Source: a virus
Length of the DNA stretch: 36,067 nucleotides
Reading direction: 5' to 3' (one strand)
Virus record (IMG/VR): IMGVR_UViG_3300025141_000335
Location: 1-36,067 of that record
Shown here: piece by piece, positions 6,867-25,044 of the stretch
Position numbering within the stretch: the first letter of the stretch is position 1
How the letters are laid out: every line of letters begins with the position of its first letter
Position numbers and translations under genes: made by a program
The notes under the pieces: generated by a model
The model's database searches: none
Seen by the model: only the letters and a program-made list of their open reading frames with translations
What the model was told of the DNA's origin: nothing

Positions 6867-9800
6867 ATGGCTGTAAAGTGGGAAAACTTAAATTACGAAA
6901 CTTGGGGTTCTATAGCAGAATTAGCTAAAGCTGTCCACATCAAGCATGATGGAGATGACGTTTATTTCGCCGCATCATCTTTTTCTGTGGCCGGCAAAGG
7001 ATATTCAAGTGTTAATGATATCCCTCCGGATTTAAAAAATAAATTTGCGCAAGAAACATTAAAAAAGCTGTTTTCTTGGCTGGCGAAGAAGCCTCTTGCC
7101 AACGCTGATGAGTTGAAATATAGACTTGAGGACGAGAAGGTTTATGTTTTAGTCGGAGTTGAAAAAGAAAAAGCAGACGACCAGCCTGCTGCAGATGCCC
7201 CCGAAGATGCTCCCGGGTATTTCGCCGATAAAAAAGCGGTTTCAAAAGTCAGCGAGCTTGATTGGTGGTCCGCACCAGAAGAAGTTGGTGAGTTCTTTTG
7301 GAAACCGGAAAATACAAATTATGTATATTATGTGGTAAACACAGAAGAAGAACCAATAACTGCCGGCTCTGATAAAAAAACTTCAATAGACGCAGCTATT
7401 TCGGAAGATAGTGAAAACTCAGCCGATTTAAAACCGGATTCGAAGAAGAAACCCGAATCTTTGGAACTTTCGATCGACCACCTTAAAGACGCATCTTTCA
7501 TGGGCTTTGATCCTCAACGGGAGAAGCCATTTGATAATAATGTTTTCAGATATGCTTTAAGCAATATTTTGTCGCAAAATGGAAAAATAGGCATACATTT
7601 GCTTCAGAACGAAGATATAACAGATGATTTCAAAAAAGAAATTATAGATGAAAAGGCTAAATACAATTTAGATCCGCTCAATCTAGAGGATGAGCTAGAA
7701 CATGTAAAGTGGGAAAGAAGATTAAGCACAAGAGATAATAGCGAATTTGTTTTTGATGGTTTTGAGGATAGCCTATACTGGAACGATGATTTTGAAACTC
7801 TAGCAGATTGGCATCTTACTGGCGACCGGCCCACAGACACAATCTTGGTCTTTTTCGCGATTCCCCAAAAATATATTGATGCCGTTCCAAACGTTGAAGA
7901 ACAACACTTTAAGTTGGCCGAGCCGCCTTTTGATGAGGTTGTATTCGCGCCACATATAGAGCTTGAAGAGAATGCAAAAATTCTTGAAAAAATTATAAAA
8001 GAATACGTTGATGTTATAGAAGACGAAGGCCCTGCTGGCGTAGAAATTTACATTGAAGGCGATAAGTTGGGCTCTAAGTGGGTAAAGGGACAAGAAATTG
8101 TAGAGTATATTGAAGGCTCAGTGCTGCCGGATTTGCTCCGACTACACGCGTTTGTTAAACACAGGTTTATGCAGAGGTCTTACAATATAACGCTTGAAAA
8201 AGAAGATAAGCTTCAATTTAAATTTAAAAAGCATGCCGAAAATCCCTATGTACTTTCAAAAGTTATCCACACCAGAGGACAGACTACCACACCACTATTA
8301 CAAAAAGATGTAAATCTTCTTCAAATTAACTTTAGATTTTCTATGTACGGCGCCGCACTTATTAATCTTAATGGAATCGTTAATAAATACAACGCTGGCA
8401 TGCGAGTGGGATATAAAAAGTTTTTAACAGAACAATTATTTCCAGATTACAAAGAGCTGTTTGTTTATAAACCAATACAAACGCCAATACAAGACAAGGG
8501 AAAAGAAGTTTGGAAAACGTTTACAAATCAAGCAGAAGAATTCGCAGTTAGGGAATTCGCCGGCTCTATTAAAAGACAAAACTTTATGAAGCAGGTGGAA
8601 AAGGGAAAGCCCTCCACAGATAAAAGTGTTGCAGGTAATGTTAGAGATTCTTTAAAGGTTGTTAGTTCAATTGATGATATCTATGATAAAATTTGTAGAA
8701 AATTTGGAATTACAGATATAGCTGCAGACTTAGTTAAGTGCCTGAAAGAAAAAGTGCCCGGGGCCGAGACTGCATTAAACATAAAAGATACAGCTAGGCA
8801 GATTAGAAATAACCCCAAAAAATTAAGAATAATGATAGAAAGCGCACTGATGTCCACTTTGGCTCCACCGGGTGAAGAGCCTAGATTGACCGACATTCTT
8901 ATAAATGGAGATGTAGCCAAGCTTAAAAAAGAGAAAGCCGCGTGGTGTAAAGAGTTAATAAAACAGTATCCGGGCAAAACATGTAAACAGGCTTCGGATG
9001 AATATCAAACTAAAATAAGCGATTCTAAAAAAGTTCTTAAAACATTCGTGGTCTGCATAGATTTTCCCGTTGAAGACGCAAACACTTTTTATGAAAAGCC
9101 AATTAATGAAATAATAAAAGAAGTCGGAGACTGGTTCGAACACCCCGGCGCCAAATATGACAAAAAACAGGCGATTAAATGCGTCAGTCATATAGCTGCC
9201 ACTGGTCTGGCTCTTGCCGGCGCCAGCGATTCTATTGATAAGTTCCGCAAGGCCGAATTCGTCAATAACAAATATATTAAATTAACAGGAAATGATGTTC
9301 CAATCGTCGGCCAAAAAAAGGGAGCTAGACACACTCACACGGGCACTCCAAGAGAATTTGAAACTGATATAAACAAAATAAAGGCCTTCTCCTCGGGCGA
9401 CCCGTGGAAAGCCATTGAAAAAGAAATAATTGAATTAATTTTAAGGCTGGCGTTTGAGGGGATTAAGGCTTTATTAAACACTCTTCTTGAGGCCCTTTTC
9501 GATGCTGCGTGTAAGTCTGATGATGACGATAAGAAAAAGCCTGACGGCAACCCCGGGGATGTAAGCTTACCAGCAGGCCCTATTGATCCGAACGATCCAA
9601 AGTGGCAGCGCGCTTGTTTGCCACAAACACCAGAAGCCATGGCCACACTTTTAAAGTCGATTTCTGCAAGGCTGACTCCGAGAGAGCTTTGTCATTTAAT
9701 GAACGGCGAATATTATAATGAGAATGTTGATGTCGCGACAGTTATACAAAAATTAATACGAAAGTTGGATAAAAGTGGCGGCTGGGGTATTGAAAAAGCT

Positions 9801-11192
9801 GGCATATACAGTAAGAGTTCTATAGCTAAATATTTTAAGAAGGTCGGCGAAACCTTCCCAGAAAAGTTCAGCAGAGTTTGTAACGAGGCTTTGAACGCCA
9901 TTGAGGCCGCAGCGCACGCGGCCCGGGCAAACCGCGAGTTGTGCAAAGATTTAGGCGCTGAAGCAATCAAGGATCTTCAGGATAGGCTGAAAAAGCTTGG
10001 CTTAAGTAATGAAGATGTAGCCAAGATCATTAAAAATAGTAAAGTAAAAGATCTGAACGCGCTTGAAAAAGCCTTGGACTTCTTAGCAGAAGAGAACTTC
10101 CTTGACAGTATCTTAGACGAAATTGTTATTGAGCAGCCCGAAATAGTAAACTCTGCAGTAGAAAAATCTATTAATGGTGTTTTCGGCGGAATTGAAAAAG
10201 CTATCAATGCATATTTAAACGATCTTTATTTCAAGTCATATCTACCAACTTCGGATTTCAATTTGGCTGTGAATTATATCGTCAACAAAAAAGAGGCGGA
10301 TCCTGTGATAAAGACAACGATCCCAAAAGACCAATTGGAAAAAATAGCAAAAGACAAGCTTATTTCCGACATTGAGGGCAACTATAGTGATCCGAACCCG
10401 CTTTTATCCCTATTTGCTGATGATAATTTTTATGAAAAATATCTAGACCTAGACATTTATGGCGAAGGCAACGCACCTTTGGAAAAATATCGTGAAATGT
10501 TTAAGGCTGCAATTGATTTTAAATTTTATTTTCGAACTGTTCCCACTAAAGCCAAATCTAAAGCGTTAATTTTATCAGAAAAGTATAATCGCACGACATT
10601 AGGGCAGGACGTTGAGGTGGCATTTGACGATTCGGGAAAATATTATCAAGTGTATATCTGGAACATTCCAATGTTTTTGGATTTTTCAGAGCCAAGCAAA
10701 CCTTTTCCTGTGGATCGAGCACCCTATATCCACAAAGCCGCAGAGGTGCCTAACGTCTGGCACGCTCTCAGACCGGTTGTAGATCCTGACGATAAAAAAC
10801 TAAATGACTATATTGATAAACGAATGAACAAAGGGGCTATAGAGTCATCTACGACTTCAGGCGGCCAGCCCGCCGAAGTTTTTGATGAGATGTTTTATGG
10901 TGCATTGAAAGTTGCCGTCGATCAAAACAAGGGGTCTAAGGCGAGTTTTAAGAAAGCTTTGACTTCGATTAGAAAAAATATAGGTGTGCAGTTGCTTGAA
11001 ATGATGCCAGAGACAACTCCTAATAAAATGATTGCGGGGGCAATGAAAGATTTTTATTTAGAGGAATATAGCAGTCCGAAGCCGAAGCCAAAGAAAAAAT
11101 TGCGAAAATATAAAGTTTTTCAAAAAGAAAATTCCTTGGTGCCAATCGAAAAAATAAAAAAGCAGGTTATAGAGATTTACGAGAAAAAATAG
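6867..11192 (+). CDS. Large uncharacterised tail/baseplate protein (1441 aa)
   Basis: No function is recognised. The first 480 residues are mixed, with acidic, poorly ordered segments (about 110-120 and 180-215). A helical region with several cysteines covers roughly 600-800 (for example CKELIKQYPGKTCKQASDEY). A strongly hydrophobic helix lies near 851-882 (EIIELILRLAFEGIKALLN), followed by an acidic/lysine linker with DDDDKKKPDG. Near residue 936 comes TPRELCHLMNGE, which opens a long helical segment. The C-terminus holds PKPKPKKKLRKYKVF near 1404. The length and position between hub and wedge genes suggest a structural, possibly ejected or hub-attached, protein. The ATG has no clear Shine-Dalgarno and follows the previous stop by five bases. 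Confidence 0.75.
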   Translation: MAVKWENLNYETWGSIAELAKAVHIKHDGDDVYFAASSFSVAGKGYSSVNDIPPDLKNKFAQETLKKLFSWLAKKPLANADELKYRLEDEKVYVLVGVEKEKADDQPAADAPEDAPGYFADKKAVSKVSELDWWSAPEEVGEFFWKPENTNYVYYVVNTEEEPITAGSDKKTSIDAAISEDSENSADLKPDSKKKPESLELSIDHLKDASFMGFDPQREKPFDNNVFRYALSNILSQNGKIGIHLLQNEDITDDFKKEIIDEKAKYNLDPLNLEDELEHVKWERRLSTRDNSEFVFDGFEDSLYWNDDFETLADWHLTGDRPTDTILVFFAIPQKYIDAVPNVEEQHFKLAEPPFDEVVFAPHIELEENAKILEKIIKEYVDVIEDEGPAGVEIYIEGDKLGSKWVKGQEIVEYIEGSVLPDLLRLHAFVKHRFMQRSYNITLEKEDKLQFKFKKHAENPYVLSKVIHTRGQTTTPLLQKDVNLLQINFRFSMYGAALINLNGIVNKYNAGMRVGYKKFLTEQLFPDYKELFVYKPIQTPIQDKGKEVWKTFTNQAEEFAVREFAGSIKRQNFMKQVEKGKPSTDKSVAGNVRDSLKVVSSIDDIYDKICRKFGITDIAADLVKCLKEKVPGAETALNIKDTARQIRNNPKKLRIMIESALMSTLAPPGEEPRLTDILINGDVAKLKKEKAAWCKELIKQYPGKTCKQASDEYQTKISDSKKVLKTFVVCIDFPVEDANTFYEKPINEIIKEVGDWFEHPGAKYDKKQAIKCVSHIAATGLALAGASDSIDKFRKAEFVNNKYIKLTGNDVPIVGQKKGARHTHTGTPREFETDINKIKAFSSGDPWKAIEKEIIELILRLAFEGIKALLNTLLEALFDAACKSDDDDKKKPDGNPGDVSLPAGPIDPNDPKWQRACLPQTPEAMATLLKSISARLTPRELCHLMNGEYYNENVDVATVIQKLIRKLDKSGGWGIEKAGIYSKSSIAKYFKKVGETFPEKFSRVCNEALNAIEAAAHAARANRELCKDLGAEAIKDLQDRLKKLGLSNEDVAKIIKNSKVKDLNALEKALDFLAEENFLDSILDEIVIEQPEIVNSAVEKSINGVFGGIEKAINAYLNDLYFKSYLPTSDFNLAVNYIVNKKEADPVIKTTIPKDQLEKIAKDKLISDIEGNYSDPNPLLSLFADDNFYEKYLDLDIYGEGNAPLEKYREMFKAAIDFKFYFRTVPTKAKSKALILSEKYNRTTLGQDVEVAFDDSGKYYQVYIWNIPMFLDFSEPSKPFPVDRAPYIHKAAEVPNVWHALRPVVDPDDKKLNDYIDKRMNKGAIESSTTSGGQPAEVFDEMFYGALKVAVDQNKGSKASFKKALTSIRKNIGVQLLEMMPETTPNKMIAGAMKDFYLEEYSSPKPKPKKKLRKYKVFQKENSLVPIEKIKKQVIEIYEKK

Positions 11193-11195
11193 AAA

Positions 11196-12815
11196 ATGAA
11201 GATAATAGATAAAACACAACAGTACGACGATGCAATCTTGTATGGCACAATGCTTGGCAAAATTATGTTTATAATTGCTGACAAGGTGTACACTAGCGTT
11301 TCTTTCCTCATCGATAAAAACTTGGGCGAAAAGCAGGACTTATTAACAGCTTATTTTATGGAGCTTGTAGAAAGAAGACTAAAACAAGAAGCGACACTTA
11401 GCGAATATTACGATGATGCGAAAAGACTGTATGAAAAATATCAAGAAGTTATAGACCCTAATAGCAAGAAAAATCCATCACTTATAACCGGCAAAGAGGC
11501 TCTTGGGGTGATGTGCTTGAATTCAATTAAAATAATTTTGGAACAACTCAACAAAGTAAGCACTAAAAGTACAAAAAACACACCTTGGCACGAAAAGTGG
11601 TTTTATGAAAATGAACTAACTATTACTACTTGGTGGACTTCTACAACTGGCCCGTTAAACGACAAGGGCTGGGCTAACTGGGTGTCGAAACATGAGAAAC
11701 CTTTTAGGAACAAAAATTTATCTTTGCAGCCATATTTTGATCCGTCACCCGGCACTGGCGGCTCTTATGAGTGGCCAAAACAAGCCAAAACAATGGAAGG
11801 TGCTGCAAATTTTTGGAGTGTGGCCGCAGCATCCAAATTTACCCACCCGCCGGGCGCGAGCGATGCCGCCTACGGTTTAGGAGGAGATATAGATGTTCCC
11901 AAATTTCATAATAAACTTTTGTGGCAGAGATTTTTAAAAATAAAGCCAACTGATAAACCCAACTGGTCTGATCTGCAAATGATTGCCATGGACACTGCCA
12001 AAAGCGGAGAGCATGAACGATTTAATTTAAAGCCGGCGCTTTATTCAAGCAATCTTACCGGACATGTTAATATATACTATTGGGAGGCCGCGTGGAAAGA
12101 TTTTATAACTAAAATTAATAATGCCTCTAAAACATCTAATACGGCGCCAGGCGGTAAGTTTGCAACTCATGCTGCTAAAAAAGTTTATGCTTCGCCACAA
12201 GATTTGTACGATTCTATAGAATACGGAGTAAGGGCGGTATATCTTTGTGATAAAGCTTTTTATAATGAGCATAAAGATTTTTTTAGCATTAAATTTGGTA
12301 AAAATGCCGGCACCACTGGTGATACGATGCGCAAAAAAAGCTATAAAGACGCTGCTTATAATATAGGTAATTATTTTTTAATACCGATAGCCGAAGTTAC
12401 AAGACCGTATGATTTATCAAACATGACGATTCCTTATGATAAGAGTGCTCCTGATAAGAATACCAGTGGAAAAGCAGTTGAAAAATTTATAACTCGCAGC
12501 GGCCCGGGCTTGAGAGTAAAAACCCCCGCTCAAATTGTCGCACTAAAAGCACCCCTTAACACCCAAAAACTTTCTGAACTCAAAAGCCTTCAAAAAGAAC
12601 TGCTTGAGACAAACGAAATGAGGGCGCTTACAGAATATATTTTCCCTTATCATCTATTACCACAAATGTCAGCTATTTACTGTATAGAGTCCTTGTCAAA
12701 TGCTTTAATGTCTTTGACAGCCGGTGGAGGAGTGCCATCGGTGATTGTTAACGCTGGGCTCGATGCGTTGATTAATAAAATAAGATATTCTGGGGTATAT
12801 ATGAAAAATGAATGA
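11196..12815 (+). CDS. Uncharacterised tail/baseplate protein (539 aa)
   Basis: I cannot identify this protein. It is helical at the start (EKQDLLTAYFMELVERRLKQ, about residues 45-65). The middle is rich in Trp, Gly, Ser and Pro (TITTWWTSTTGPLNDKGWAN). Near the end it has LTEYIFPYHLLPQMSAIYCI, followed by a long hydrophobic helix, then VIVNAGLDALINKI. No signal peptide is seen. It starts three bases after the 1441-aa gene and overlaps the gp25-like gene by eight bases. Together with its larger neighbour it forms a two-gene block between hub and wedge genes, where T4-like genomes keep baseplate components. A partnership with the 1441-aa protein is inferred from adjacency only. Confidence 0.7.
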   Translation: MKIIDKTQQYDDAILYGTMLGKIMFIIADKVYTSVSFLIDKNLGEKQDLLTAYFMELVERRLKQEATLSEYYDDAKRLYEKYQEVIDPNSKKNPSLITGKEALGVMCLNSIKIILEQLNKVSTKSTKNTPWHEKWFYENELTITTWWTSTTGPLNDKGWANWVSKHEKPFRNKNLSLQPYFDPSPGTGGSYEWPKQAKTMEGAANFWSVAAASKFTHPPGASDAAYGLGGDIDVPKFHNKLLWQRFLKIKPTDKPNWSDLQMIAMDTAKSGEHERFNLKPALYSSNLTGHVNIYYWEAAWKDFITKINNASKTSNTAPGGKFATHAAKKVYASPQDLYDSIEYGVRAVYLCDKAFYNEHKDFFSIKFGKNAGTTGDTMRKKSYKDAAYNIGNYFLIPIAEVTRPYDLSNMTIPYDKSAPDKNTSGKAVEKFITRSGPGLRVKTPAQIVALKAPLNTQKLSELKSLQKELLETNEMRALTEYIFPYHLLPQMSAIYCIESLSNALMSLTAGGGVPSVIVNAGLDALINKIRYSGVYMKNE

Positions 12816-13185
12816 AGGTCTATCAGTAAAACTTCCTTTGCAAAAAGATAAGAAATTCGGCTTTCTGCTGAATACAACTTATGAAGATATGGTTCTTCAG
12901 AACTTAAAGAATCTAATTTTGACATCACCCGGAGAACGAGTTTGGGATCCGGAGTTTGGTGTCGGTTTGAGGAGATATCTTTTTGAACTACAGAGCAGTA
13001 CAATAAACAATGAGCTTATCGCACAGATAGAGGAGCAGGTAGAGACATATATGCCCTTTGTGGAAATACTCAACATTGAAGTACTTAGAAATGCAAGAAT
13101 AGAAAATATGTTAAATGTTACACTTTCTTTTCTTATTAAGCCACTGCAAAAAGCCGCGGCTTTAGATATCTCATTTCTTATTTAA
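12808..13185 (+). CDS. 25: gp25-like baseplate wedge protein
   Basis: This is a close match to the gp25 family (baseplate wedge/sheath initiator, also TssE-like in type VI secretion). It has 125 aa, near the family norm (T4 gp25 is 132 aa). Residues 39-60 carry the hallmark TSPGERVWDPEFGVGLRRYL, including the conserved GER and the PxFG core. The rest follows the family alternation of strand and helix. In T4, gp25 sits in the wedge, contacts gp6 and gp53, and helps start sheath assembly. The next gene is gp6-like, the classic neighbour, so the pair is secure. The start overlaps the previous gene by eight bases. Confidence 0.95.
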   Translation: MNEGLSVKLPLQKDKKFGFLLNTTYEDMVLQNLKNLILTSPGERVWDPEFGVGLRRYLFELQSSTINNELIAQIEEQVETYMPFVEILNIEVLRNARIENMLNVTLSFLIKPLQKAAALDISFLI

Positions 13186-13200: not shown

Positions 13201-14994
13201 ATGGCCGGTAAAAAAATAATCCCAATAAACTACACTAATCGCGAATTTGAGACAATCAAAGCCGATTTAGTTGAATATGCAAAACGTTATTATCCAAATA
13301 CGTATAAAGATTTTAATGAGGCGTCCTTCGGCGCTTTGATGCTTGATACGGTTGCGTATATTGGCGATATGCTTTCTTTCTATCTAGATTATCAAGCAAA
13401 TGAGTCTTTTTTGTCAACTGCGATAGACCCAGATAATGTGATCAAGTTGAGCAAGACTTTGGGGTTTAAATATAAGGGCACTCCAAGTTCAAGCGGAATT
13501 GCAACTTTTTATATTTTGATACCAGCCAAATCAACAGGACTTGGAGTAGATTCAAATTATTTGCCAATATTAAAGAAGGGCACACAGATTGCCAACGACG
13601 CCGGCGCAAGTTATATTCTTAATGAAAATATTGATTTTGCTAATCCAAACAATTTAGTTGTCGTTGCACAAAACGATGCAACAACTGGCTTACCCACTTC
13701 CTATGCAGTCAAGGCATCGGGTCAAATAATTTCTGGTATTTTAGAACAAGAGTCCTTTGTGCTTGGCGGCTACAGAAAGTTTAAAAGTTTACAGTTGGCG
13801 GCCTCTAACGTGGTGGAGGTATTATCTGTCTCTGATACATCCGGTCATGAATATTTTGAAGTGGATGCATTAACACAAAATGTTATTTATAAAACGTTTG
13901 AAAATAAAAATGACGATAAATTTGACACCCCATACGTCCTTAAGGCTGTTCCGGTTCCGCGAAGATTTGTTCTTGAGCGTCACCGGAATGATGTATTTTT
14001 ACAATTTGGATATGGATCAGATACCAATTTAACTTCAGAGGTTGTGGTGGATCCCGCAAACGTTATATTGAACACTTACGGCAAAGATTATATTACGGAT
14101 ACCACTTTTGATCCAACCAACTTAATTAAAACAGATAAGCTGGGCGTTGTACCAGCTAACACAACTTTGACGGTTACTTATCGGACAAACACTGCTGAGA
14201 ATGTAAACGCTCCGGTCGGCTCCGTAGTCCTTGTAGAGAAGGCGGATTTTAGTTGGCCAGATGGTGCAACGAATTCTTCGACAATTCAGGCGGCCATTTC
14301 AAGCCTAGAGAGCACAAATGAAGAGCCTATTCTAGGAGATTTAACACTGCCAACAGTCGATGAGATAAAAATTAAGGCCATTGATACGTTTATGACACAA
14401 AATCGCGCAGTAACAAAACAAGATTATATGAACTTATGTTATTCTATGCCAACAAAATTAGGCTCTTTAAAGAGGGTGAATATTGTTCAAGATAAAGACT
14501 CATTTAAAAGAAATCTCAATTTATATGTAATGGCTGAGAACTCACTTGGATTTTTTATTACAGCAAACAACACGCTTAAAGACAATTTAAAAACTTGGCT
14601 TTTAAACTATAAGATGTTAAATGACACTGTTGATATCCTCGATGCCAAGATTGTTAATGTTGGAATAGATATTGAAATAATCACACTTTTGGGAAAAAAC
14701 AAATATGATGTTTTGGAAGATGCGTTAAGTGCTCTGAAGGAAAAGTTTGATAAGAAATTTGAAATTGGTGAGAGTATATACATAAGCGATGTTTACACAA
14801 CCGTCAACAAGGTTGACGGTGTACTAGACACGACTAACGTAAAGTTCACAGCAAAGACCGGAGTAAACTACTCCCAAGTTCCATTTGATATAGTTCAAAA
14901 CACATCTGCAGATGGTAGATATGTGTCTGTGCCTGAAGATTATGTATTAGAAATAAAATTCCCAGAAGACGATATTAGAGGGGCTGTGAAATAA
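13201..14994 (+). CDS. 6: gp6-like (baseplate J-type) baseplate wedge protein
   Basis: The 597-aa product fits the gp6/baseplate-J family. The N-terminal part has NEASFGALMLDTVAYIGDML then SFYLDYQANESFL, and TQNRAVTKQDYMNLCYSMP lies near 395-415. Both are typical of baseplate J-like proteins. T4 gp6 is 660 aa, so length is normal. gp6 forms the inner ring of the baseplate around the hub with gp25 and gp53. The neighbours fit: gp25-like upstream, fibre-type proteins downstream. The ATG has no good Shine-Dalgarno, only an AT-rich spacer. The stop overlaps the next gene as TAATG. Confidence 0.92.
   Translation: MAGKKIIPINYTNREFETIKADLVEYAKRYYPNTYKDFNEASFGALMLDTVAYIGDMLSFYLDYQANESFLSTAIDPDNVIKLSKTLGFKYKGTPSSSGIATFYILIPAKSTGLGVDSNYLPILKKGTQIANDAGASYILNENIDFANPNNLVVVAQNDATTGLPTSYAVKASGQIISGILEQESFVLGGYRKFKSLQLAASNVVEVLSVSDTSGHEYFEVDALTQNVIYKTFENKNDDKFDTPYVLKAVPVPRRFVLERHRNDVFLQFGYGSDTNLTSEVVVDPANVILNTYGKDYITDTTFDPTNLIKTDKLGVVPANTTLTVTYRTNTAENVNAPVGSVVLVEKADFSWPDGATNSSTIQAAISSLESTNEEPILGDLTLPTVDEIKIKAIDTFMTQNRAVTKQDYMNLCYSMPTKLGSLKRVNIVQDKDSFKRNLNLYVMAENSLGFFITANNTLKDNLKTWLLNYKMLNDTVDILDAKIVNVGIDIEIITLLGKNKYDVLEDALSALKEKFDKKFEIGESIYISDVYTTVNKVDGVLDTTNVKFTAKTGVNYSQVPFDIVQNTSADGRYVSVPEDYVLEIKFPEDDIRGAVK
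14800..14820 (+). repeat. Perfect 9-base inverted repeat inside the gp6-like gene
   Basis: ACCGTCAAC and GTTGACGGT flank a three-base loop (AAG). The stem sits fully inside the reading frame, at the segment TVNKVDG, and is not followed by a run of T. It could fold in the mRNA, but it may simply follow from the encoded residues. Confidence 0.5.
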
Positions 14995-16481
14995 TGGGCG
15001 TTAAACGTTATATAGCTACAAAAGATAATACAATAACGAATGCATTTAAATCAGATCTTTCTACAAGGGGAACTGGTTCAAACATGGGGGCTTCTGATAT
15101 TTTGGAGGTCTTTTCCATCTATGCTCAAGCTAACACAAGTAGCATAGAAAAGTCGCGGGTGCTGCTTCAATTTCCAACAACTGAGCTTATAGCTGACAGA
15201 CAGAGTGATGTAATCTTATCCGCCTCTGCAGATCCTAAATACTTTTTAAGGTTGTTTAATGCAGAGCACGGCAAAACTTTGCCAAAGCAGTTTGGGGTAA
15301 CAGTAAAGGCCGTATCTAGATCTTGGGCCGAAGGCACGGGTCTAGACATGGATGAGTACAAAGATTTAGGTTCTTCAAACTGGATTAATGCAACCAGCGA
15401 GTCGTCGGGTATAACAACTTGGACGGCAGCCGGCGGCGATTTCCACGCCAGCCCTTCATATACTTATTCTTTTGATAAAGGAACTGAAGATGTTGAGCTT
15501 GACATTACAACGCTGGTTAATCAGTGGTTGGATGGCACCAAAACCAATGATGGCTTGGGCGTCTTTCTATCTACGACATATGAGGACTCAACTGAGCGCT
15601 CATATTATACAAAAAAGTTTTTTGGTAGGGGGAGTGAGTTTTTCTTTAAGCGCCCTTGTATTGAGGCTCGTTGGAAAGACGCAAAGCTAGATGATCGCGG
15701 CGTGTTCTTTGCAAGTAGCTCATTAGCTCCGAAGACTGATAATCTGAACACTTTATATTTTTACAATTATATTCGCGGCCAACTGAAGAACATTGAACAA
15801 GTTGGCAAAGGAAACATATACGTTCACTTATATTCTGGTTCTGACACTAACAACGCACCTGTTGCCGGCGGTGTACCACTTACTTTAGACCTACCTGATG
15901 ATCACCCATCTACTCCACGCGTAGCAGATACACCAGCTACCGGAGGGTGGTTTACAACGGGAATATATACCGCATCTCTTGGTTTAAGAACTTCTCTTGT
16001 AAAGGCCTTTGACGTGTGGCACGTCGGGACAACCCAGTATAAGAGTGGTACAATCGAGATTAAAACATTTAATACTAACTGGGAAGTTAATCCCACCGAT
16101 CGATATATAACTTCAATAACAAATTTGAAAGATTCGTATAACACTAAAGAAACGGCTAAGTTGAGATTGTATATTCGTTCGCAAGATTGGAATCCCAATA
16201 TTTATACAAAGGCGTCAACTAAGGTTCAGGCAGATCTTTTAGAACAAACTTATTATAGCATTTATAGAGAGTCCGATGATTATACGATAATTTCATATGG
16301 CACCTCAAGTGCCACAGAACACACAAGATTATCTTATGATATATCTGGAAATTATTTTGATTTGGACATGTCTTTATTTGAACCGGGTTATGCTTATGGA
16401 ATTAAATTTTTAATGAAAGTCAACGGCAACTGGAGAGAAACTCCAGAAACATTCAGGTTTAGAGTAGATAATGAGTCTTAA
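14994..16481 (+). CDS. DNRLRE-like structural protein (baseplate/fibre, 495 aa)
   Basis: The N-terminal 250 residues match the pattern of DNRLRE-type (CBM96-related) beta domains: SSIEKSRVLLQFPTTELIAD near the start, then SRSWAEGTGLDMDEY, SNWINAT, and later DVELDITTLVNQWLDG and NDGLGVFL. Such domains often bind sugars. The C-terminal part has SYDISGNYFDLDMSLFEPGY and ends in GNWRETPETFRFRV, a pattern I associate with tail proteins of T4-like phages. It overlaps the gp6-like gene by TAATG and the 2857-aa gene by 11 bases, so the three are translated together. A role in the outer wedge or adsorption is inferred; no catalytic residues are seen. Confidence 0.7.
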   Translation: MGVKRYIATKDNTITNAFKSDLSTRGTGSNMGASDILEVFSIYAQANTSSIEKSRVLLQFPTTELIADRQSDVILSASADPKYFLRLFNAEHGKTLPKQFGVTVKAVSRSWAEGTGLDMDEYKDLGSSNWINATSESSGITTWTAAGGDFHASPSYTYSFDKGTEDVELDITTLVNQWLDGTKTNDGLGVFLSTTYEDSTERSYYTKKFFGRGSEFFFKRPCIEARWKDAKLDDRGVFFASSSLAPKTDNLNTLYFYNYIRGQLKNIEQVGKGNIYVHLYSGSDTNNAPVAGGVPLTLDLPDDHPSTPRVADTPATGGWFTTGIYTASLGLRTSLVKAFDVWHVGTTQYKSGTIEIKTFNTNWEVNPTDRYITSITNLKDSYNTKETAKLRLYIRSQDWNPNIYTKASTKVQADLLEQTYYSIYRESDDYTIISYGTSSATEHTRLSYDISGNYFDLDMSLFEPGYAYGIKFLMKVNGNWRETPETFRFRVDNES

Positions 16482-19400
16482 GAAACTATTTGATGCAGAG
16501 AGAAGTAAAAAAACTACCAACTTAACTTCGGTAGTTCATCAAAGCTTATCTGGCATCAATTCAAGTTCTTTAGATGTTGAGTCCGGAGATTTAGTCAGAG
16601 AGTCTAATAAAGAAACCCGCAGGTTTGTTCCAGAGGTGGATTATTCTGATCCAGCTAACTTTGCACGCTTTGGCCTGAGCGCTCAATATTATAATGAGTC
16701 AATAACAAGAGTCAAAGATTATTATCCATATGATGGCTCATTGGCAGAAAAACAAAAATGGCGCAACGAGTCAACGTACTTGGATCTTTATCTTTTTGAT
16801 AATGAGTACCCTAGGACAAATGGATACGTTTCATTTGGTGACACTTGGACTGGCACTAGTACAATAACTGGCGGTTGGGGCAAACCAACTACACTTGAGT
16901 ATATTCAGTTCAAAAGCGGCCCGCACAAAGACCCCAACAACAAAGACACGATAGCGGAGACATTCCCAGATCCCGGCAATGTCGTCGGCGGCAAAGCAAG
17001 TATATATGATGAAAATATAGACGACCTAGGCAAGAGCAGAGAGGGGAATTTACAATTTGCGTGGACGGACGGAGCTTGTGTCGAGTTCTGGATGAAAAAG
17101 AGCGCATGGCTAAACGTTTCAACAGATACCGTAAATGAGTGCATATTTCAGCTATCCGGGTCAGATGACACTGAGAACGTCGGCCACGAATTGGCTGTAT
17201 TTTTAAGCGGATCGGGCAACAGCACAAAGATTTTCACTCACTATGGAACATATAGTGGCAAAGCGTTTACCAAATCTGCGCTTAGCGCGTCATTAGACAC
17301 CGGCTTAACAACGATTGCAGACGGCAACTGGCATCATTATGCTATTAATATTAAGCCAGTGTCAGCCGCCACAACCCTTGAGTTGTATGTTGATGGTGTC
17401 CATACTAGCGAGCTTGCAGCGTTAGCCACACCGACCGTTACAACCGTTGTTAGCGGCGCTCTAGTGGGTACTATCGGCGCCTGTGGCGCCCAGATTGATA
17501 CCAGCTTCAGAACATTAGGCTATGGCAAGTTGAAAGCCAGCTTAGACGAGTTCAGATTTTGGAGAAAAGCTAGAACAGCAAAAGAGATCGGCCGCTTTTG
17601 GAAGGGTCAAGTTGGTGGTGGTACAAACACCGACATAGCAAATATTGATTTGGGAGTCTACTATAAGTTTAACGAAGGTGTTGTGGGCTCTTCTTCTGTC
17701 GATAGCAAAGTAATAGACTACTCAGGTAGAATATCTAACGGCACGTGGGTTGGGTATACATCAGGTGCCAGAAGCACTGATTCGGCGATTGTGGAATCTG
17801 GTGTTTCTAGTTTCGAGTTTAAAGATCCCATTTTGTACAGCGCACACCCGGATTTCATAACTTTTGAAAACAGGCTGGCTCAAAGTGCCAGTTATCACGA
17901 CAGGAACAACCCATCTGCCATTTATAACACTTTGCCGGCTTGGATAACAGAAGAAGATTATGAGAATGGCAGTGTTTTGCGCAACTTAACACAAATAATG
18001 GCAAGCTACTTGGATGATCTTTATCTTCAGATACAAGAACTTCCAAAGCTTAGACACAAGACTTATGCAGAAGATTTTAGAAAGCCTCATGTTTTTTATG
18101 CGCAATTGTTAGAAAACACCGGCTTCCCCGCACCAAAGATTTTTTCGAACATATCAAGCTTCACAAAATATCTAAACCGCTCAGAAAAGAAACTATTTGA
18201 AAAAGACGTAGATGAAATAAAAAATACGATTTACCAAAACATATATAACAACTTAGTTTATATTTTAAAGAGTAAGGGTACCGAAGCTGCTTTTAGAAAC
18301 CTGATTAGGTGTTTTGGCGTCGGTGACGAGCATTTTAAACTTAATATATATTCAAACAACACAGAATATATTCTTAAAGATGGTTATAGACCAGCAGTTG
18401 TAAGAAAAAATTATATCAATTTTAACGACACAGATGAGTTTGAAGCAAACGTTTATCAGCATTCAGATTCGACCAACTCCGACTCGACGGGATTTATCTA
18501 CGGCACACTTGATCAGAAAAATGCTGCCTCAAACGCGGTCGAGGGCTCGATTGCAAACACTTATGAGTGTGAGGTCATATTTCCTAAGCGCGAAAAACCC
18601 GGAAGTGTTAACTTTGTAAACTATCCTTATTTAACATCTTCGCTGTTTGGCGTGCACCAACACAATACGGCTAGCAATGCTGATGATACTGGATTTCCAG
18701 CGCCAGACTATGCAAACTTTCAAGTGCACGCTGTGCGGAATAAAAAATATTCAGATGATGCATATTTTGTTTTAACTTCTTCTGGCGATTTCAGTTTTAA
18801 GGAAATCGCTTCGCCGGTATTTAAAAACGTTTATGATAATCAAAAGTGGAATTTTGCCGTTCGTGTTAAGCCGAGAAAATTTGATCTTGCAGACTTTACT
18901 AGTGGAAGTTTCACGGTTGGCGTAACCGGCTCAAATGTTGAGTTTTATGGCATAAGCACAGTGGGAAGTTATGTTAATGGTGAGTTTTCACTTTCAGCAT
19001 CCATACCGACTTATCTTCAGGGCGTTTCTTTGGTGTCGCACCCGCGCAGAGTTTATGTTGGCGCTCACCGCCAACACATGACAGCTTCGACAGTGTATCA
19101 AAGGACGGATACGAAGATTTCATCGATGAGAGTTTGGGCAGATTATTTGGACAACAACACCATTAAAGCTCATGCCCTCGATCCGGAAAACTATGGTACT
19201 GCGCAGCCTTATAAGAGTGCTTATATGGGTCAATCACAAATAAGTGATGTTTTTGTGCCAAAGTCTGAAGCTTTAATGTTGAATTGGGATTTTGCTCAAG
19301 TTAGTGGTTCGGACGCATCCGGCAGGTTCTCTGTTGTTGATGCATCTTCCGGCTCTGTGACTGATTTAAATACCCGCGCTCGTTATGGAAAAATGGGGGA

Positions 19401-22400
19401 CGTAATTAAAAAGTTCCACACTGGCCGCGGCGACTTTTTTAAAGCTAGCGAAACGCGTGTATTTGAGAAAGAATATGTTCAGTCTGCCAAGAAACAATTG
19501 CCGGAAAACTTACACACAGACGACACGGTTCAAATTTTACGAGAAGACGATTTACAATTTACAAAAGAGTCCGCACCGATTTCCACATTTATAAATGTAG
19601 AAAGAAGCATGTATCAAAACATCTCACAAGAGATGGTAAACGTCATGTCTTCAATTGTTGATTACGCCAATCTTGTTGGCGAACCGGCCGACAAATACAG
19701 ACAAGAATATAAAAGCTTAGCAAAACTAAGAGGTCTCTTTTTTGAGAGAATCGACAACATACCAGATTTAGATAAATATTTGGAATATTTCCAGTGGTTA
19801 GATCTTTCCCTTAATAGGATTATTGAACAACTATTTCCAGCATCTGCGAACGTTTCAGACGGCGTAAGGAATATGGTCGAAAGCCACATTTTTGAAAGAA
19901 GTAAATACCGCCATCAGTTTCCAACGCTTGAGATGAAACAAGACGATCCCTCTGGTTCTCTGGAGAGTGTCAATAAACTTCTTTATAATTGGAAATATGG
20001 GCATGCCCCGCTAACAGCCGGCGGCACCAGAGAGCAGCTAGAACAACCAGAGAAGCAAGCAGAAAATTGTTTGTGGTGGAACAAACGCTCCATGGAAGAC
20101 GGCCTTCCACACTCTGGAGACAAAGATGTAGACGAAAACTACCGCCAAGTGATGTTTAAAGCTGAAATCGATGCGCTTAAGCGGTCATGGACCAGCCCGT
20201 ATAAATACACGTTAGATTTTCAAGACGAATACAGAGGCGGCATTCAGACCAAAAATAGTAAATATAACTTACACAAAGCAACACGCGGGACCATAGACAT
20301 TTCCGATCCAAACCCCAGTGTTACGCAGATCGGAATTAACTGTGATGATGACGCCGCACTTAAACTTAAATACGACGGTCAGGAAAAGATTAAGGTAGTT
20401 ATAGATGGCAATACATACAAACCGGCCGGCTTGCCAGTTCGCTATTATTCAACTTCAGATGCGATAGGAGACAAATATACAACCCATCAACACCTAGATG
20501 TATACGAACCCGACTATGAAGTTCCAATGCAAGGGCCGTTCACAGAAAAGTATGTCGGCGGATCCGCCCACAGAAAGGTGCCTGCCACGACGGCCAAAGC
20601 CGGCACTGCCGGCAACACCACAAGGCCGGAAGCTTGGCTATTTGACGGCCCAGAGGAAAAAATTGATAACCCCTTTAATGTCAATACAGATCATGCCCGG
20701 GCCGATTTTTATGGCGGCGGCGAATTCGGTGGTAGTATGTTGGCCAAGCGCCCGGTCAACATACGAAATGTTGTGTATACTACAGGCACAGTTGGCTTGC
20801 CGACTGTAATAGGAAACTATCAGAAAAATTACGAAGTAGTACAGACTAGTGATCGCATGACAAACAATTTCTACTTTCGTTCTAGCGATGGGAATGTTGC
20901 AACTTTATATATTAACTCAGCCTATTTGTCGGGCGCCGCCCTCGGCCGCGCTGCTCCAGCCGATCGAACAAAAAATAAAACAGTGTTTGTTGAAAGATTC
21001 AGTGCCCCGGGCGGTATTGATACCATGGGCCAAGAATCTTTAGACTTTGTTTCTGTACAATACTCGCCTTATAATGCTTTGCCATATAGAAACTTAATTG
21101 TAAGGCGGCCACTCAGAGATGATTTGTCAAAACCAATGGCTTGGGGCGGCTATCAATCTGGATCGTCGGTTACAGCTTCTTTCCACAAGGTGAACCACAA
21201 CCCATTAACAGTGCTTAAACATCGCGGCGCCGATGAGAGTGCAGGATATGTAACGGCTAGCCTTGAAGACAACTGGTTCGTTCAGCACATGATTCCTAGG
21301 AGTGATATTCAATATTCTTGGATTGCAGATTCATATAAATCTACAGATGTATATGGTTATGCGACGGGTAGTAAGGATATTACGTTTATAAGTGCGAGTG
21401 ACTGGGGGACGTTCGATGATGGCGGCGGCAACGCCAATGTTTGGGGTCTTGACCAAGGCGCCGTTGACGCAACAGCCGGATATACCGATTTTAGGCCAAC
21501 ACCCTTTAATTATTTGAGATTAGATATTAATGATATTATCACCTCTTCGGTAAATACTCTTGGTTGGCCTTTGGACACTAATATGGAAAAGTATTTGAAT
21601 GAAGGGGGCCAAACTGCGTATCCGCTGCACGAAGATGATTTGTGGAATCCCGGGGATGGGCATATGTTGATGGCCATTCTTCTTAATAGAAACGGCCCGT
21701 ATGGATACCCCTCTTGGAAACAAGTAAGAACAGGTGAGCACCCAGTTGCCAGATACCACAGGCGCAATAATACAATATCGATTGTAGAACCTATTACAAT
21801 TGATGGTACAGTCGCTGGAACTGATTTCCCGAAATACAAGGGAGGCGGATTTACGCAATACATTGAGCCAGCGGTTGTTTCAAAGTACAGCCCCTTGGTT
21901 CATAAGCTGACAGTAGAAACTGATCAGGTTGATTTCTATCTAGGAACAGACGAAGGTTCAGTGCCGGTTATGAAAGAGTCTGAAATTATTATTCAGCACA
22001 CTTATGCCAACAATAAGTCAGACTTCAGTTCTGACGAATTGAATAAAAAATTGGGAATAGATTTTGATTCTAGAGTTCAAATGTATGATCACGTTTTAGA
22101 TTTGTATAATACAGATGTGATCAAAAAAGTTAATCACCTGAAATATAAAGAAACGTTGTGGCCAAGAGAAAAGAATTCATTTCTAGCTCGGAGCAGAAAA
22201 AGATTAGATTATGCTGAACTGCAAACTGAAATTGATGCTATAGAACACAGGTCGTTCTGGAGAGACGACATTCTTGACCGCGAAAGGCGAACTCTTGGAA
22301 CTGCGCTTAACTCGCAGAATAGAGTGGTCACGGACATAAACAATCCAACTGGTAAATCTATTTGGCCCCTTGATACTTTTGGCGAGTTAAGGCTTCACCA

Positions 22401-25044
22401 TTCTGGTACCGCGACCAGCCCCATGGGATTGGCTCTGCCGTGGCTCACGGCTTCTGCCTGTTATACACGCATTTCGTCGTCGCACATGGCACATTGGCAG
22501 CAAGGAAGAACCGGGCCCGGCATTGAACCCCCCGGCGGCGGCAATCCCGCCAAGAGCGCCATTAGTTTTTATTTTACAAACCAGCTTTTGCCAACAGCAG
22601 ATAATAGATATTGGACTGATAATGTAACAACCGGACGCGCTCCTCGCAACCCGTGGTTTGACTCATATGAAGACTTTTCAGAAGACATTAAAAGGTTTGG
22701 CAAAGATCACTCTATTATTCCAGAGTTTAGAATAAGCGAGCACATGGACTATTATGTTAACCAAAAAGATGGAAACTTTGCCGCCGACTTACCCGGGTTC
22801 TTAAGAATCGACGGGGCAAGCTCCGATGCAGCCCCGAGAACAAATGGTATTTTAGATACTGAAGATGCGTTTGGGAATAGCTTAGCTGTTCAAGGCCGGC
22901 CGGATGAAGACAGTTCTTCTGATAATTTTTATAAATATTATGCAGAGGGCGAGTTTAATAAGTACTTCAAAATTTTACGCCAAGATCACAAGGGCAAAAA
23001 GACAAAGGTAAAATTAGAATGCCACGGTATCATGAAACTATTGCCTTATAATGGTTTTTATCCCGTGTTAAGAAGTACACAAATGGCAGCACTTTTCTCT
23101 TCTTCGTATGGTTCTGCTGTGTCTGGTGGCGAAAATATGATACCAGTTATCGACGCCAAACACAAGAGAAAACAAGCTGCATATGCTGGTTTCTTACAGC
23201 CTTTCTATTCCCCGGGTATTTTTTATAATACGGTCAAATCTGGTATTGCAGTTGATTATCCGGTGCACACTACAGACCCGGGTAATATGATCAACCACCT
23301 AGGCGGGCATAACTCAGCCGGCCCATGGTCCACAATTCCGAACAATCCAAATTTTAGAATACCATTTGAGGCAATTGTAAGCCCAAAAGAATATTTGTTA
23401 TCCGGTACAAGCATGTTGATTCCTGTCCCAGAAGCAAACTTTTCTTTAACTTGCAGCTTCAGCGGTAAAACTTCTAATGCTTTATATGACTTGGCTGCAA
23501 ATAATTATTTCGCCGAAGTTTCGAACTTCTTTTTGCAGAACAAGAGAAACGTTGTACTGGCCTCAAAGCAAGAGCCGTTTAATATGAGATCGGGGATTAC
23601 ATATAAAATGGATGTTGTGCTGCGCAAAAAGCAAGAAAAAGAGCCACAACACTCCGGGGATACGCTCGACGGCAATCGCTTTGTTATGTTTGAGGGCCCT
23701 TCATATCCGGAAGACAGTTTCACTTATAATTACTTAGGCGCTCCTTACGGCCCTGCATATCAATCTCAGACGGGGTCAAATTTCTACGATGAAGACCCGG
23801 GCTTTGCGCCACATTGTCCACCATATTTTTATGGAGATTCAGTGGCAACGATTAGCTTTACACCATCACGGAATGATGCATTCCGCTTAGAAGAAATACT
23901 TGCGGGTTCTACGATTACGTATTCGAACACAGACAATTACTTATTAGGTTGGACAAAGCCGTTCTCACCCGGTTTCCCAGCAAAAGACGCCCGAATGAAC
24001 ATCAGTTCATCTGTAAATTTGTTTGGAAAGACAAAAACCAAGCAGGTTTCGTATTCGGCCGAAAATGTGTTTGAAACCGGGGAAGGTAAAAAGTTTAAGC
24101 CAGTGAGCGTTTCCGACGATCCAAACGGCCCCAACACATGGGTTATTTCACCAAGATTCGAATGCCCGGTGATGAACTTTTCCAACGTGCTCTTGGAAGA
24201 GGAAACAGGTGGCATGTGGACCCATTATGGCAAGATTCCAACTCAAAAAGAAGGGATCACTTTGCAGATTCGCGAACAAGACCCGATATTAAGCCGCGAT
24301 CCAGATTCAACGAAAGTTGGCTCCCTTGCACAGGCCTGCGGGTTCAATACAAAAGAAAAACACATTGGTCGATTTGCCAATCAAAAAGAAATTTCAGAAG
24401 CGATCGTGGCCATACCCTTAAGACCAGCCGGAACTGTTGGTAGAAAATCCCTTTTGGAAAGGCCATATTATTTTGATAAACAAACTTTGGCCATCGCTCT
24501 AGAAGAAAGGCAAATGTTCATGGCGATTCAAGACATTCATCTGAACCCGGAAAACTCAATTAAACAGATGGTAGAAAAAATGCAAAAATATGTATTCCCG
24601 CCTCATTTAGATTTCTTGACTAACAGAGAAGCTACGCCGTTTGGGATGTACATTTTTGAGTTTGAAGACGCATTGTCCAAGCAGGATTTAGCCAATATTT
24701 GGCAGGGCGTGATGCCAGATAGAGCCGTCACCGCAAGACGAGAAACTGTTGCTGTTGAGCATGAAATTGGCCCGGGCGAGATATTCCAAGAAGACTTTGA
24801 AGAAGATACTCGTTGGATAATTTTTAAAGTTAAAAGAAAAGCTAGAACAAATTATTTTGCAACAACGGCAGATCAATCTGATGATGACAGATTTAAGTTC
24901 GATTTTAAGATTGGCTCTCAAGGTTCAACAGCGGAACAAGATGAACTGCCGTATAGTTATAACTGGCCATACGATTATTTTTCTTTAGTTGAGTTGGCTA
25001 AGATTGACGCAGAAGTGACTTTTGAAGAGGAAGAGAAAGAATGA
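16471..25044 (+). CDS. Giant tail/baseplate protein with LamG-type lectin fold (2857 aa)
   Basis: This is the largest gene of the window. Residues about 190-400 form a LamG/concanavalin A-like domain: CVEFWMKKS (from about 203), DGNWHHYAINI (about 283), YVDGV (about 305) and the closing LDEFRFWRKARTAKEI (about 358). Near 590-620, IYNNLVYILKSKGTEAAFRN resembles a motif I associate with large baseplate proteins of T4-like phages. A second jelly-roll-like stretch spans about 700-910 (CEVIFPKREKPGSVNF, RRVYVGAHRQHM, ISSMRVWADYLD). The remaining 1900 residues have no domain I can name. By position it may play the part of gp7 or an outer-wedge protein. It starts 11 bases inside the previous gene and ends in an ATGA overlap. 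Confidence 0.8.
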   Translation: MSLKKLFDAERSKKTTNLTSVVHQSLSGINSSSLDVESGDLVRESNKETRRFVPEVDYSDPANFARFGLSAQYYNESITRVKDYYPYDGSLAEKQKWRNESTYLDLYLFDNEYPRTNGYVSFGDTWTGTSTITGGWGKPTTLEYIQFKSGPHKDPNNKDTIAETFPDPGNVVGGKASIYDENIDDLGKSREGNLQFAWTDGACVEFWMKKSAWLNVSTDTVNECIFQLSGSDDTENVGHELAVFLSGSGNSTKIFTHYGTYSGKAFTKSALSASLDTGLTTIADGNWHHYAINIKPVSAATTLELYVDGVHTSELAALATPTVTTVVSGALVGTIGACGAQIDTSFRTLGYGKLKASLDEFRFWRKARTAKEIGRFWKGQVGGGTNTDIANIDLGVYYKFNEGVVGSSSVDSKVIDYSGRISNGTWVGYTSGARSTDSAIVESGVSSFEFKDPILYSAHPDFITFENRLAQSASYHDRNNPSAIYNTLPAWITEEDYENGSVLRNLTQIMASYLDDLYLQIQELPKLRHKTYAEDFRKPHVFYAQLLENTGFPAPKIFSNISSFTKYLNRSEKKLFEKDVDEIKNTIYQNIYNNLVYILKSKGTEAAFRNLIRCFGVGDEHFKLNIYSNNTEYILKDGYRPAVVRKNYINFNDTDEFEANVYQHSDSTNSDSTGFIYGTLDQKNAASNAVEGSIANTYECEVIFPKREKPGSVNFVNYPYLTSSLFGVHQHNTASNADDTGFPAPDYANFQVHAVRNKKYSDDAYFVLTSSGDFSFKEIASPVFKNVYDNQKWNFAVRVKPRKFDLADFTSGSFTVGVTGSNVEFYGISTVGSYVNGEFSLSASIPTYLQGVSLVSHPRRVYVGAHRQHMTASTVYQRTDTKISSMRVWADYLDNNTIKAHALDPENYGTAQPYKSAYMGQSQISDVFVPKSEALMLNWDFAQVSGSDASGRFSVVDASSGSVTDLNTRARYGKMGDVIKKFHTGRGDFFKASETRVFEKEYVQSAKKQLPENLHTDDTVQILREDDLQFTKESAPISTFINVERSMYQNISQEMVNVMSSIVDYANLVGEPADKYRQEYKSLAKLRGLFFERIDNIPDLDKYLEYFQWLDLSLNRIIEQLFPASANVSDGVRNMVESHIFERSKYRHQFPTLEMKQDDPSGSLESVNKLLYNWKYGHAPLTAGGTREQLEQPEKQAENCLWWNKRSMEDGLPHSGDKDVDENYRQVMFKAEIDALKRSWTSPYKYTLDFQDEYRGGIQTKNSKYNLHKATRGTIDISDPNPSVTQIGINCDDDAALKLKYDGQEKIKVVIDGNTYKPAGLPVRYYSTSDAIGDKYTTHQHLDVYEPDYEVPMQGPFTEKYVGGSAHRKVPATTAKAGTAGNTTRPEAWLFDGPEEKIDNPFNVNTDHARADFYGGGEFGGSMLAKRPVNIRNVVYTTGTVGLPTVIGNYQKNYEVVQTSDRMTNNFYFRSSDGNVATLYINSAYLSGAALGRAAPADRTKNKTVFVERFSAPGGIDTMGQESLDFVSVQYSPYNALPYRNLIVRRPLRDDLSKPMAWGGYQSGSSVTASFHKVNHNPLTVLKHRGADESAGYVTASLEDNWFVQHMIPRSDIQYSWIADSYKSTDVYGYATGSKDITFISASDWGTFDDGGGNANVWGLDQGAVDATAGYTDFRPTPFNYLRLDINDIITSSVNTLGWPLDTNMEKYLNEGGQTAYPLHEDDLWNPGDGHMLMAILLNRNGPYGYPSWKQVRTGEHPVARYHRRNNTISIVEPITIDGTVAGTDFPKYKGGGFTQYIEPAVVSKYSPLVHKLTVETDQVDFYLGTDEGSVPVMKESEIIIQHTYANNKSDFSSDELNKKLGIDFDSRVQMYDHVLDLYNTDVIKKVNHLKYKETLWPREKNSFLARSRKRLDYAELQTEIDAIEHRSFWRDDILDRERRTLGTALNSQNRVVTDINNPTGKSIWPLDTFGELRLHHSGTATSPMGLALPWLTASACYTRISSSHMAHWQQGRTGPGIEPPGGGNPAKSAISFYFTNQLLPTADNRYWTDNVTTGRAPRNPWFDSYEDFSEDIKRFGKDHSIIPEFRISEHMDYYVNQKDGNFAADLPGFLRIDGASSDAAPRTNGILDTEDAFGNSLAVQGRPDEDSSSDNFYKYYAEGEFNKYFKILRQDHKGKKTKVKLECHGIMKLLPYNGFYPVLRSTQMAALFSSSYGSAVSGGENMIPVIDAKHKRKQAAYAGFLQPFYSPGIFYNTVKSGIAVDYPVHTTDPGNMINHLGGHNSAGPWSTIPNNPNFRIPFEAIVSPKEYLLSGTSMLIPVPEANFSLTCSFSGKTSNALYDLAANNYFAEVSNFFLQNKRNVVLASKQEPFNMRSGITYKMDVVLRKKQEKEPQHSGDTLDGNRFVMFEGPSYPEDSFTYNYLGAPYGPAYQSQTGSNFYDEDPGFAPHCPPYFYGDSVATISFTPSRNDAFRLEEILAGSTITYSNTDNYLLGWTKPFSPGFPAKDARMNISSSVNLFGKTKTKQVSYSAENVFETGEGKKFKPVSVSDDPNGPNTWVISPRFECPVMNFSNVLLEEETGGMWTHYGKIPTQKEGITLQIREQDPILSRDPDSTKVGSLAQACGFNTKEKHIGRFANQKEISEAIVAIPLRPAGTVGRKSLLERPYYFDKQTLAIALEERQMFMAIQDIHLNPENSIKQMVEKMQKYVFPPHLDFLTNREATPFGMYIFEFEDALSKQDLANIWQGVMPDRAVTARRETVAVEHEIGPGEIFQEDFEEDTRWIIFKVKRKARTNYFATTADQSDDDRFKFDFKIGSQGSTAEQDELPYSYNWPYDYFSLVELAKIDAEVTFEEEEKE

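Follow-up and report, generated by a model that had tools for sequence, protein, structure and literature searches.

The window, that is, the whole 36,067-base virus record analysed here, contains a single uninterrupted ORF of 2857 aa at 16471-25044. It lies on the plus strand, as do its domains and the gp25-like, gp6-like and 495-aa ORFs placed below, starts with an ATG and has no internal stop; the extent and length given in a preliminary description of this DNA were borne out. The ORF shares 11 bases with the preceding ORF and 4 with the following one, and its first residues, MSIK or MSLK, are common to the giant protein and its relatives. Residues 1-190 (16471-17040) form a conserved N-terminal region.

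The giant is preceded by genes for a gp25-like baseplate wedge protein (12808-13185; PHROG 261, E 1.3e-19; PF04965, E 9.7e-11), a gp6/gpJ-like baseplate wedge protein (13201-14994; PHROG 10646, E 2.5e-18; TIGR02243, E 4.2e-7, below the cut-off) and a 495-aa ORF (14994-16481) with a DNRLRE-domain match below the cut-off (E 1.4e-5). The order in the window is thus gp25-like, gp6-like, one 495-aa ORF, giant; it places the giant just after gp25- and gp6/gpJ-like genes, with the intervening ORF as a deviation from P2 and T4. Judged by size, a series of ORFs of about 598 aa, about 500 aa, the giant, about 340 aa and about 1200 aa recurs in the fetched relatives.

The other genes of the region differ in their conservation. 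The gp25 and gp6 genes and the 495-aa ORF are 88-92% identical to their counterparts in the three contigs L002-L004, whose giants are 81-82% identical to the window protein. The 539-aa ORF preceding gp25 (11196-12815) is only 52-55% identical to these contigs and is the most divergent gene compared. A 1441-aa ORF further upstream (6867-11192; about 1400-2090 aa by size in relatives) had no match in Pfam (E ≤ 0.1) or PHROGs (E ≤ 0.01); it is 68-70% identical to L002 and L003 over the aligned part and is conserved less than gp25 and gp6. Nucleotide-sugar epimerase- and UDP-glucose dehydrogenase-like ORFs are found near the tail genes (1019-2849), and the tail region is flanked by late sigma factor-like and RuvC-like ORFs (3646-4326 and 35414-35929).

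In 12 large relative records (119-201 kb) the T4-type major capsid protein gp23 (PF07068) was found over the cut-off in all 12, and the tail sheath (PF04984) likewise in all 12, in seven of them over the cut-off. On the basis of these two markers, the giant-bearing phages can be classed as contractile-tailed and T4-related.

The giant itself is 99.97% identical in one near-identical contig, and a search of IMG/VR with the full-length protein matched 53 loci. At least 591 confirmed IMG/VR stretches contain its N-terminal profile and at least 584 its C-terminal profile, two scans that may share contigs. The family is therefore common in viromes, yet tblastn of the whole protein against 50,697 phage records revealed no relative at E ≤ 1e-5. 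Complete, unsplit copies of 2500 aa or more (132, some of them fetched in duplicate) are between 2536 and 4325 aa long. Two cellular carriers were considered and rejected. The chromosome record of a WOR-3 MAG (CP070664; L215:9824-14107) contains a fragment that is 98.4% identical over 637 aa to the phage contig L016, beside bacterial genes, and was taken as a probably chimeric assembly; the second candidate, L216, is a contig of only 3.6 kb. A host was not inferred from either.

Alignments of 37 rows (A1, the window together with proteins drawn from the 53 loci; A6 contains all 37) and, for structure prediction, of 94 rows for the core (A3, the window and 93 of 113 clusters) and 72 rows for the C-terminal part (A4, the window and 71 of 91 clusters) were used, together with subsets of 60 rows of A3 (A5) and 40 rows of A4 (A8) and with all 65 inserts described below (A7). 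In scans of the giant with Pfam, PHROGs and NCBIfam, only LamG was named over a cut-off. Whole-protein searches of PHROGs, NCBIfam and PDB sequences yielded no usable match; the rows for cytochrome bc1 subunit 7 (five, E 0.09-0.9) and for phrog_14786 (one, E 0.047) were taken as chance. PDB-sequence searches with the A3 and A4 profiles revealed no relative, with one row at E 0.99. Among the open-licence papers listed for LamG or ConA domains with baseplates there was no report on this family, and literature searches that covered virion proteins of Flavobacterium phage immuto as well as Microcystis phage Mel-JY01 revealed no proteomics of a relative.

Lectin-type domains and the helical core

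The preliminary description had placed a LamG-type domain at about residues 190-400 and a possible second jelly-roll at about 700-910. For the first, Laminin_G_3 (PF13385) matched residues 211-373 (17101-17589) with 38.8 bits against a curated cut-off of 27.6 (E 1.3e-9), inside a domain that spans residues 191-445 (17041-17805), and it was found at E ≤ 0.01 in 35 of 37 relatives. The second was unmatched in the window protein by Pfam at E ≤ 1, both LamG rows belonging to the first domain. Segmental structure prediction, as proposed in the preliminary description, was run on residues 440-1180. The AlphaFold2 model (94 rows; mean pLDDT 79.4, pTM 0.74) contains a beta-sandwich with helices on either side, at about 460-614 and 1047-1119 in full-protein numbering. 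This sandwich, residues 644-1006 (18400-19488), is larger than expected and has a ConA/LamG/pentraxin fold in the predicted model (VIA Z 16.1, rmsd 3.2, 212 aligned residues; Foldseek best E 6e-6). The Pfam match and the ConA-type predicted sandwich together indicate that both lectin-like regions are real. LamG domains are common beta-sandwiches, for which sugar binding is not obligatory. A weak match to the first LamG part of the giant profile (E 0.0017) was also seen in a separate 591-aa ORF of Microcystis phage Mel-JY01 (L056:36161-37936).

The two lectin-type domains enclose a putative helical gpI/gp7-type module, residues 446-643 (17806-18399). The baseplate-like motif that had been suspected near residue 600 proved to be KSKGTEAAFRNLIRCFGV at residues 600-617 (18268-18321), which aligns with the KGT motif of P2 gpI; one K and the G are invariant across 60 rows. 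In the model, KSKGT at 600-604 sits at a turn between helices 580-600 and 605-614. A KGT motif at a helix-helix turn is typical of gpI-type proteins, and alone it is of little statistical weight. The NCBIfam profile TIGR02242, 'phage tail protein domain', was found at E ≤ 10 in residues 440-645 of half of the relatives scanned (30/60), with a best E of 4.4e-4, which stays below the cut-off. Any other NCBIfam family matched at most 3 of 60, and the window protein's own segment gave no match to TIGR02242. When whole records were searched, three of seven family records and Flavobacterium phage immuto contained one TIGR02242 match each, always at the giant's core or at the ORF orthologous to it. 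A further match was to a 783-aa ORF of Streptomyces phage GiJojo, two genes after baseplate J (E 4.6e-8).

The curated cut-off of TIGR02242 was reached in none of 12 records, and at the loose threshold used here the profile also gave matches in 4 of 14 control genomes; both results count against the gpI link. Pfam Tail_P2_I (PF09684) matched 3 of 60 relatives (best E 0.078), fewer than Mei5 (6/60) and CREPT (5/60; best E 5.6e-4 for these two), which were taken as chance coiled-coil matches. Using hhalign, the helical module aligned with a P2-type gpI profile on the KGT motif (E 0.003, probability 10); the reversed profile, five pieces of the C-terminal module and two other core pieces scored E 0.095 or worse with this gpI profile. 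When six T4-type gp7 sequences were the target, the helical module scored E 0.34, and three pieces of the C-terminal module reached E 0.019-0.051, taken as chance; hhalign values of that size therefore carry little weight. A search for T4 gp7 similarity by hmmsearch gave no match, and T4 gp7 was absent from the fold-search rows, which were filled by the lectin sandwich and barely tested the helical part. In summary, the link to gpI is weak by sequence, yet it falls where the gene order predicts it. The earlier proposal that the protein may combine the roles of T4 gp7 and of a carbohydrate-binding fibre is partly supported: the evidence points to a baseplate protein in the gpI/gp7 position with two lectin-type domains, and the sequence comparisons did not reveal kinship with T4 gp7 itself.

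More distant genomes were informative about the core. The gp6-like protein matched Flavobacterium phage immuto, Microcystis phage Mel-JY01 and the uncultured phage LR756508 over 98-99% of its length with 29-32% identity. In each of these records the core profile of the giant matched one ORF only, all just downstream of gp6: immuto gp109 with 1265 aa (E 7e-16), an ORF of 1336 aa in Mel-JY01 (E 5e-16) and one of 1400 aa in LR756508 (E 4e-10). Two ORFs lie between gp6 and the core orthologue in immuto and Mel-JY01, and one listed ORF (≥ 200 aa) in LR756508. An hhalign comparison of the module with the three orthologues gave a probability of 99 (E 3.5e-18), and a 719-aa piece of the protein of a further locus, L053, matched four immuto records at E 0.003. 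The homologous region covers about positions 20-200 and 590-700 of the A3 model, and the conserved helical segment at residues 1007-1160 (19489-19950) is common to all three orthologues. They differ from the giant in having half its length. The first LamG domain was not detected in the three orthologue ORFs, and a profile of residues 2537-2857, which matched four of four family records, had no match in six references (immuto, Mel-JY01, LR756508, T4, ACG-2014d and RM378). It follows that the shared core consists of the gpI-like and the later helical parts, and the C-terminal module appears, from these profile searches, to belong to the giant's own lineage.

Three lines of evidence, the order gp25-gp6-x-giant, the gpI-type motif and the core orthologues downstream of gp6 in three genomes, argue for a gpI/gp7 place. 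Together with the first LamG domain, the second sandwich, the TIGR02242 matches in 30 of 60 relatives and the capsid and sheath genes, they lead us to the reading that the giant is an enlarged gpI/gp7-type wedge protein of a contractile-tail baseplate with built-in lectin-type domains, to which we assign a probability of about 70%. The reading is weakened by the TIGR02242 scores below the cut-off, the matches in control genomes, the weak hhalign values and the extra ORF or ORFs after gp6.

Sequence variation, inserts and the C-terminal module

About 1900 residues had been left unassigned in the preliminary description. This remainder still has no named family; it can now be divided into a variable stretch, residues 1161-1620 (19951-21330), in which the alignment of relatives revealed insertion sites, and a family-wide C-terminal module, residues of about 1632-2857 (21364-25041). 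In one MAFFT alignment of the window with 92 of 93 non-redundant giants, on which all insert counts rest, inserts of at least 100 aa compared to the window occurred in 41 of the 92 relatives, 65 inserts in all. Laminin_G_3 was found in 18 of the 65 (best E 1.8e-23). At one site, after residue 1183 (about 20019), 19 of the 92 relatives have 102-250 additional residues, and four of these 19 inserts appear LamG-like by eye. A repeat-like domain with ITLTQ-type segments at its end recurs in several inserts at this site, in different relatives (L163, L122, L041 and others).

Divergence along the protein was quantified in bins of 100 codons between the window and L002 or L004, and in 11 non-overlapping close pairs chosen from 18 at 68-97% identity. 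In the former comparison, non-synonymous divergence was 0.004-0.086 in residues 1-1200 and up to 0.51 in residues 1601-1700. In the latter, a lectin domain was the least conserved of five core segments in every one of the 11 pairs (the first LamG domain in five and the second sandwich in six, with one near tie). A sharp local divergence of a lectin domain was seen in three pairs; e.g. the first LamG domain is 0.71 identical between L170 and L202, versus 0.92-0.97 in the other core segments. Residues 1621-2050 had the lowest median identity of all segments, 0.74. These data did not support the idea that the first LamG domain changes faster than any other part of the protein, and they do not clearly mark out the LamG domains as the main determinant of host range. 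The pattern is consistent with lectin domains exposed on a conserved wedge and with a partly variable C-terminal module.

These data bear on an alternative in which the wedge role is right, while the two ConA-type sandwiches are structural spacers that do not bind glycans and host specificity resides in the C-terminal module or in downstream ORFs. It would agree with the low identity of residues 1621-2050 and with the finding that the bins of the sandwiches are 87-95% identical to L002 and L004, the C-terminal bins falling to 49% (L002) and 59% (L004). The consistent position of a lectin domain as the least conserved core segment, its sharp local divergence in three pairs, the lower conservation of the first LamG domain compared to residues 2201-2700 in 5 of 11 pairs and the extra LamG domains inserted in other family members speak against mere spacers. 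We regard this alternative as less likely than not.

A second alternative is that the giant is a fibre or spike adsorption protein docked on the baseplate, and that the gpI-like motif is a docking segment and not part of the wedge core. The very large size, the several lectin folds and the variable C-terminal part would suit such a protein, as would the VIA matches of the second sandwich, which include the tailspike TSP2 of phage CBA120 (Z 12.7). It is at odds with the distant orthologues of 1265-1400 aa, which show the gpI-like core downstream of gp6 and in which neither the first LamG domain nor the C-terminal module was detected, and it is thus improbable.

The last 1230 or so residues are separable from the core. 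At 25 of the 174 loci that hold both, the core and the C-terminal end are in different ORFs; because three pairs share a junction, these represent 22 distinct junctions. The breaks occur at about residues 1250-1340, 1500, 1580-1635 and 1820-2057, and at most junctions the start codon is at most 40 bases from the stop codon, an arrangement usual for neighbouring genes. The second ORF of L190, open from residue 1624, encodes 1199 aa when counted from its first ATG, i.e. residues of about 1632-2857. In L037 (L037:14840) an in-frame TAG breaks the giant near residue 1500, and the next start codon follows after 84 bases; this TAG could be a sequence error, a fission or a recoding event, and the splits in L037 and in L115, where the giant is in three pieces, could both be sequence errors. 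The split loci would be compatible with a product resembling a polyprotein, from which a wedge protein (about residues 1-1620) and a separate C-terminal protein are released by cleavage, but the breaks at several places, mostly with a start within 40 bases of the stop, resemble ordinary gene fission or fusion, making this the least probable of the alternatives.

The C-terminal module also includes the most conserved motif of the C-terminal end, YNWPYD.FSLVELAK, at residues of about 2828-2845 (24952-25005). A model of residues 1658-2857 (72 rows; pLDDT 75.8, pTM 0.82) had no clear PDB match: none of 76 Foldseek rows was at E ≤ 0.001 (best E 0.4), and VIA Z was at most 5.1. The search used the module as a single model of 1200 residues and may have overlooked individual domains, so a new fold is not claimed. 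A search of BFVD with the same model gave nine rows at E ≤ 0.001, which represent seven accessions of unnamed or uncharacterised proteins and were taken as members of the giant's own family. We consider this module the most interesting part of the giant.

A proposed wedge protein and its counterparts in known systems

We propose that the giant is the third wedge component, with the gpI/gp7 role, of a contractile-tail baseplate. The data demonstrate the ORF, its domains, the gene order, the orthology of the core and the separable C-terminal module, and we infer the position in the wedge, sugar binding and signal transfer. In the wedge core, two gp6-like chains would most likely pack with the helical module at 446-643 and with residues 1007-1160. 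The built-in glycan- or surface-binding modules, on the outside of the wedge, would be the first LamG domain, the second sandwich and the variable stretch that follows residue 1160; in some relatives further LamG domains have been inserted. The C-terminal module may be an extra, lineage-specific part of the baseplate, fused here and encoded by its own gene elsewhere. When these outer parts touch the cell surface or fibres, the signal would travel through the gpI-type core to gp6 and gp25 and finally reach the sheath. In addition to the evidence listed above, the Laminin_G_3 inserts, the divergence of the lectin domains and the precedents of AlgoCIS and S-CREM2, as far as the available parts of those reports go, support the wedge reading.

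A bolder version, which we put forward only tentatively and think rather less likely to hold than not, is that in this uncultured T4-related lineage the gpI/gp7 wedge protein became a modular adsorption arm. Lectin cassettes would have been added at fixed sites of the wedge chain, the lineage-specific C-terminal module, about 1200 aa long and of a fold unlike those of solved structures, would form a new outer part of the baseplate, and host recognition would perhaps be spread over six giant wedge chains beyond the fibres.

The giant is real, and the wedge reading explains it in outline, as the enlarged and modular form of a type of baseplate wedge protein already known, found in a lineage that is abundant and uncultured. 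If the wedge reading is true, it illustrates how adsorption domains come to be carried by a baseplate wedge protein, and the enlarged tail part may help the phage to grip its host. It would also provide an annotation marker, the core plus the YNWPYD C-terminal end, for an abundant uncultured T4-related lineage, and it would parallel the gp7-like hotspot of extracellular contractile injection systems.

Very large proteins at a similar place are found in cyanophages. In ACG-2014d (NC_026923, L225:2307-22760) the gp25-gp6 pair is followed directly by the gene for a 'virion structural protein' of 6817 aa, in which no sequence similarity to the giant's core or C-terminal module was detectable. In cyanophage S-CREM2, ORF122, annotated as 'Baseplate wedge protein, intermediate' and 1937 aa long from its coordinates, adjoins the inner wedge protein, which we take as gp6-type, and was found in virions by mass spectrometry with 91 unique peptides, according to the part of the report available (PMC10665884). 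Like the giant, it is a very large structural protein after the inner wedge protein.

The gpI-type proteins (P2 gpI, PF09684, TIGR02242; gp17 of XM1) resemble the giant in that they follow gp25/gpW- and gp6/gpJ-like genes and have the KGT motif at a helix-helix turn, the latter seen in the model of the giant. They differ in size, P2 gpI having 176 aa compared to 2857 aa, and the giant lacks a single-sequence match over a curated cut-off. In the available part of its description, XM1 gp17, with 242 aa, is called an orthologue of T4 gp7 and forms a wedge scaffold with two gp16 chains (PMC10457771).

T4 gp7 and the gp7-like part of Alg12 of AlgoCIS resemble the giant as large wedge chains placed next to gp6. 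No sequence similarity to T4 gp7 was found, and the lectin domains and the C-terminal module are extra in the giant. According to the accessible part of the AlgoCIS report, the tail fibres are contacted by a hotspot, the gp7-like part of Alg12, and the other wedge chain, Alg11, has carbohydrate-binding modules, for which its authors hypothesised a role in attachment (PMC8894135). Carbohydrate modules are carried by the other wedge chain, Alg11, in AlgoCIS, whereas the lectin-type domains described here are proposed to be built into the gpI/gp7-type chain itself.
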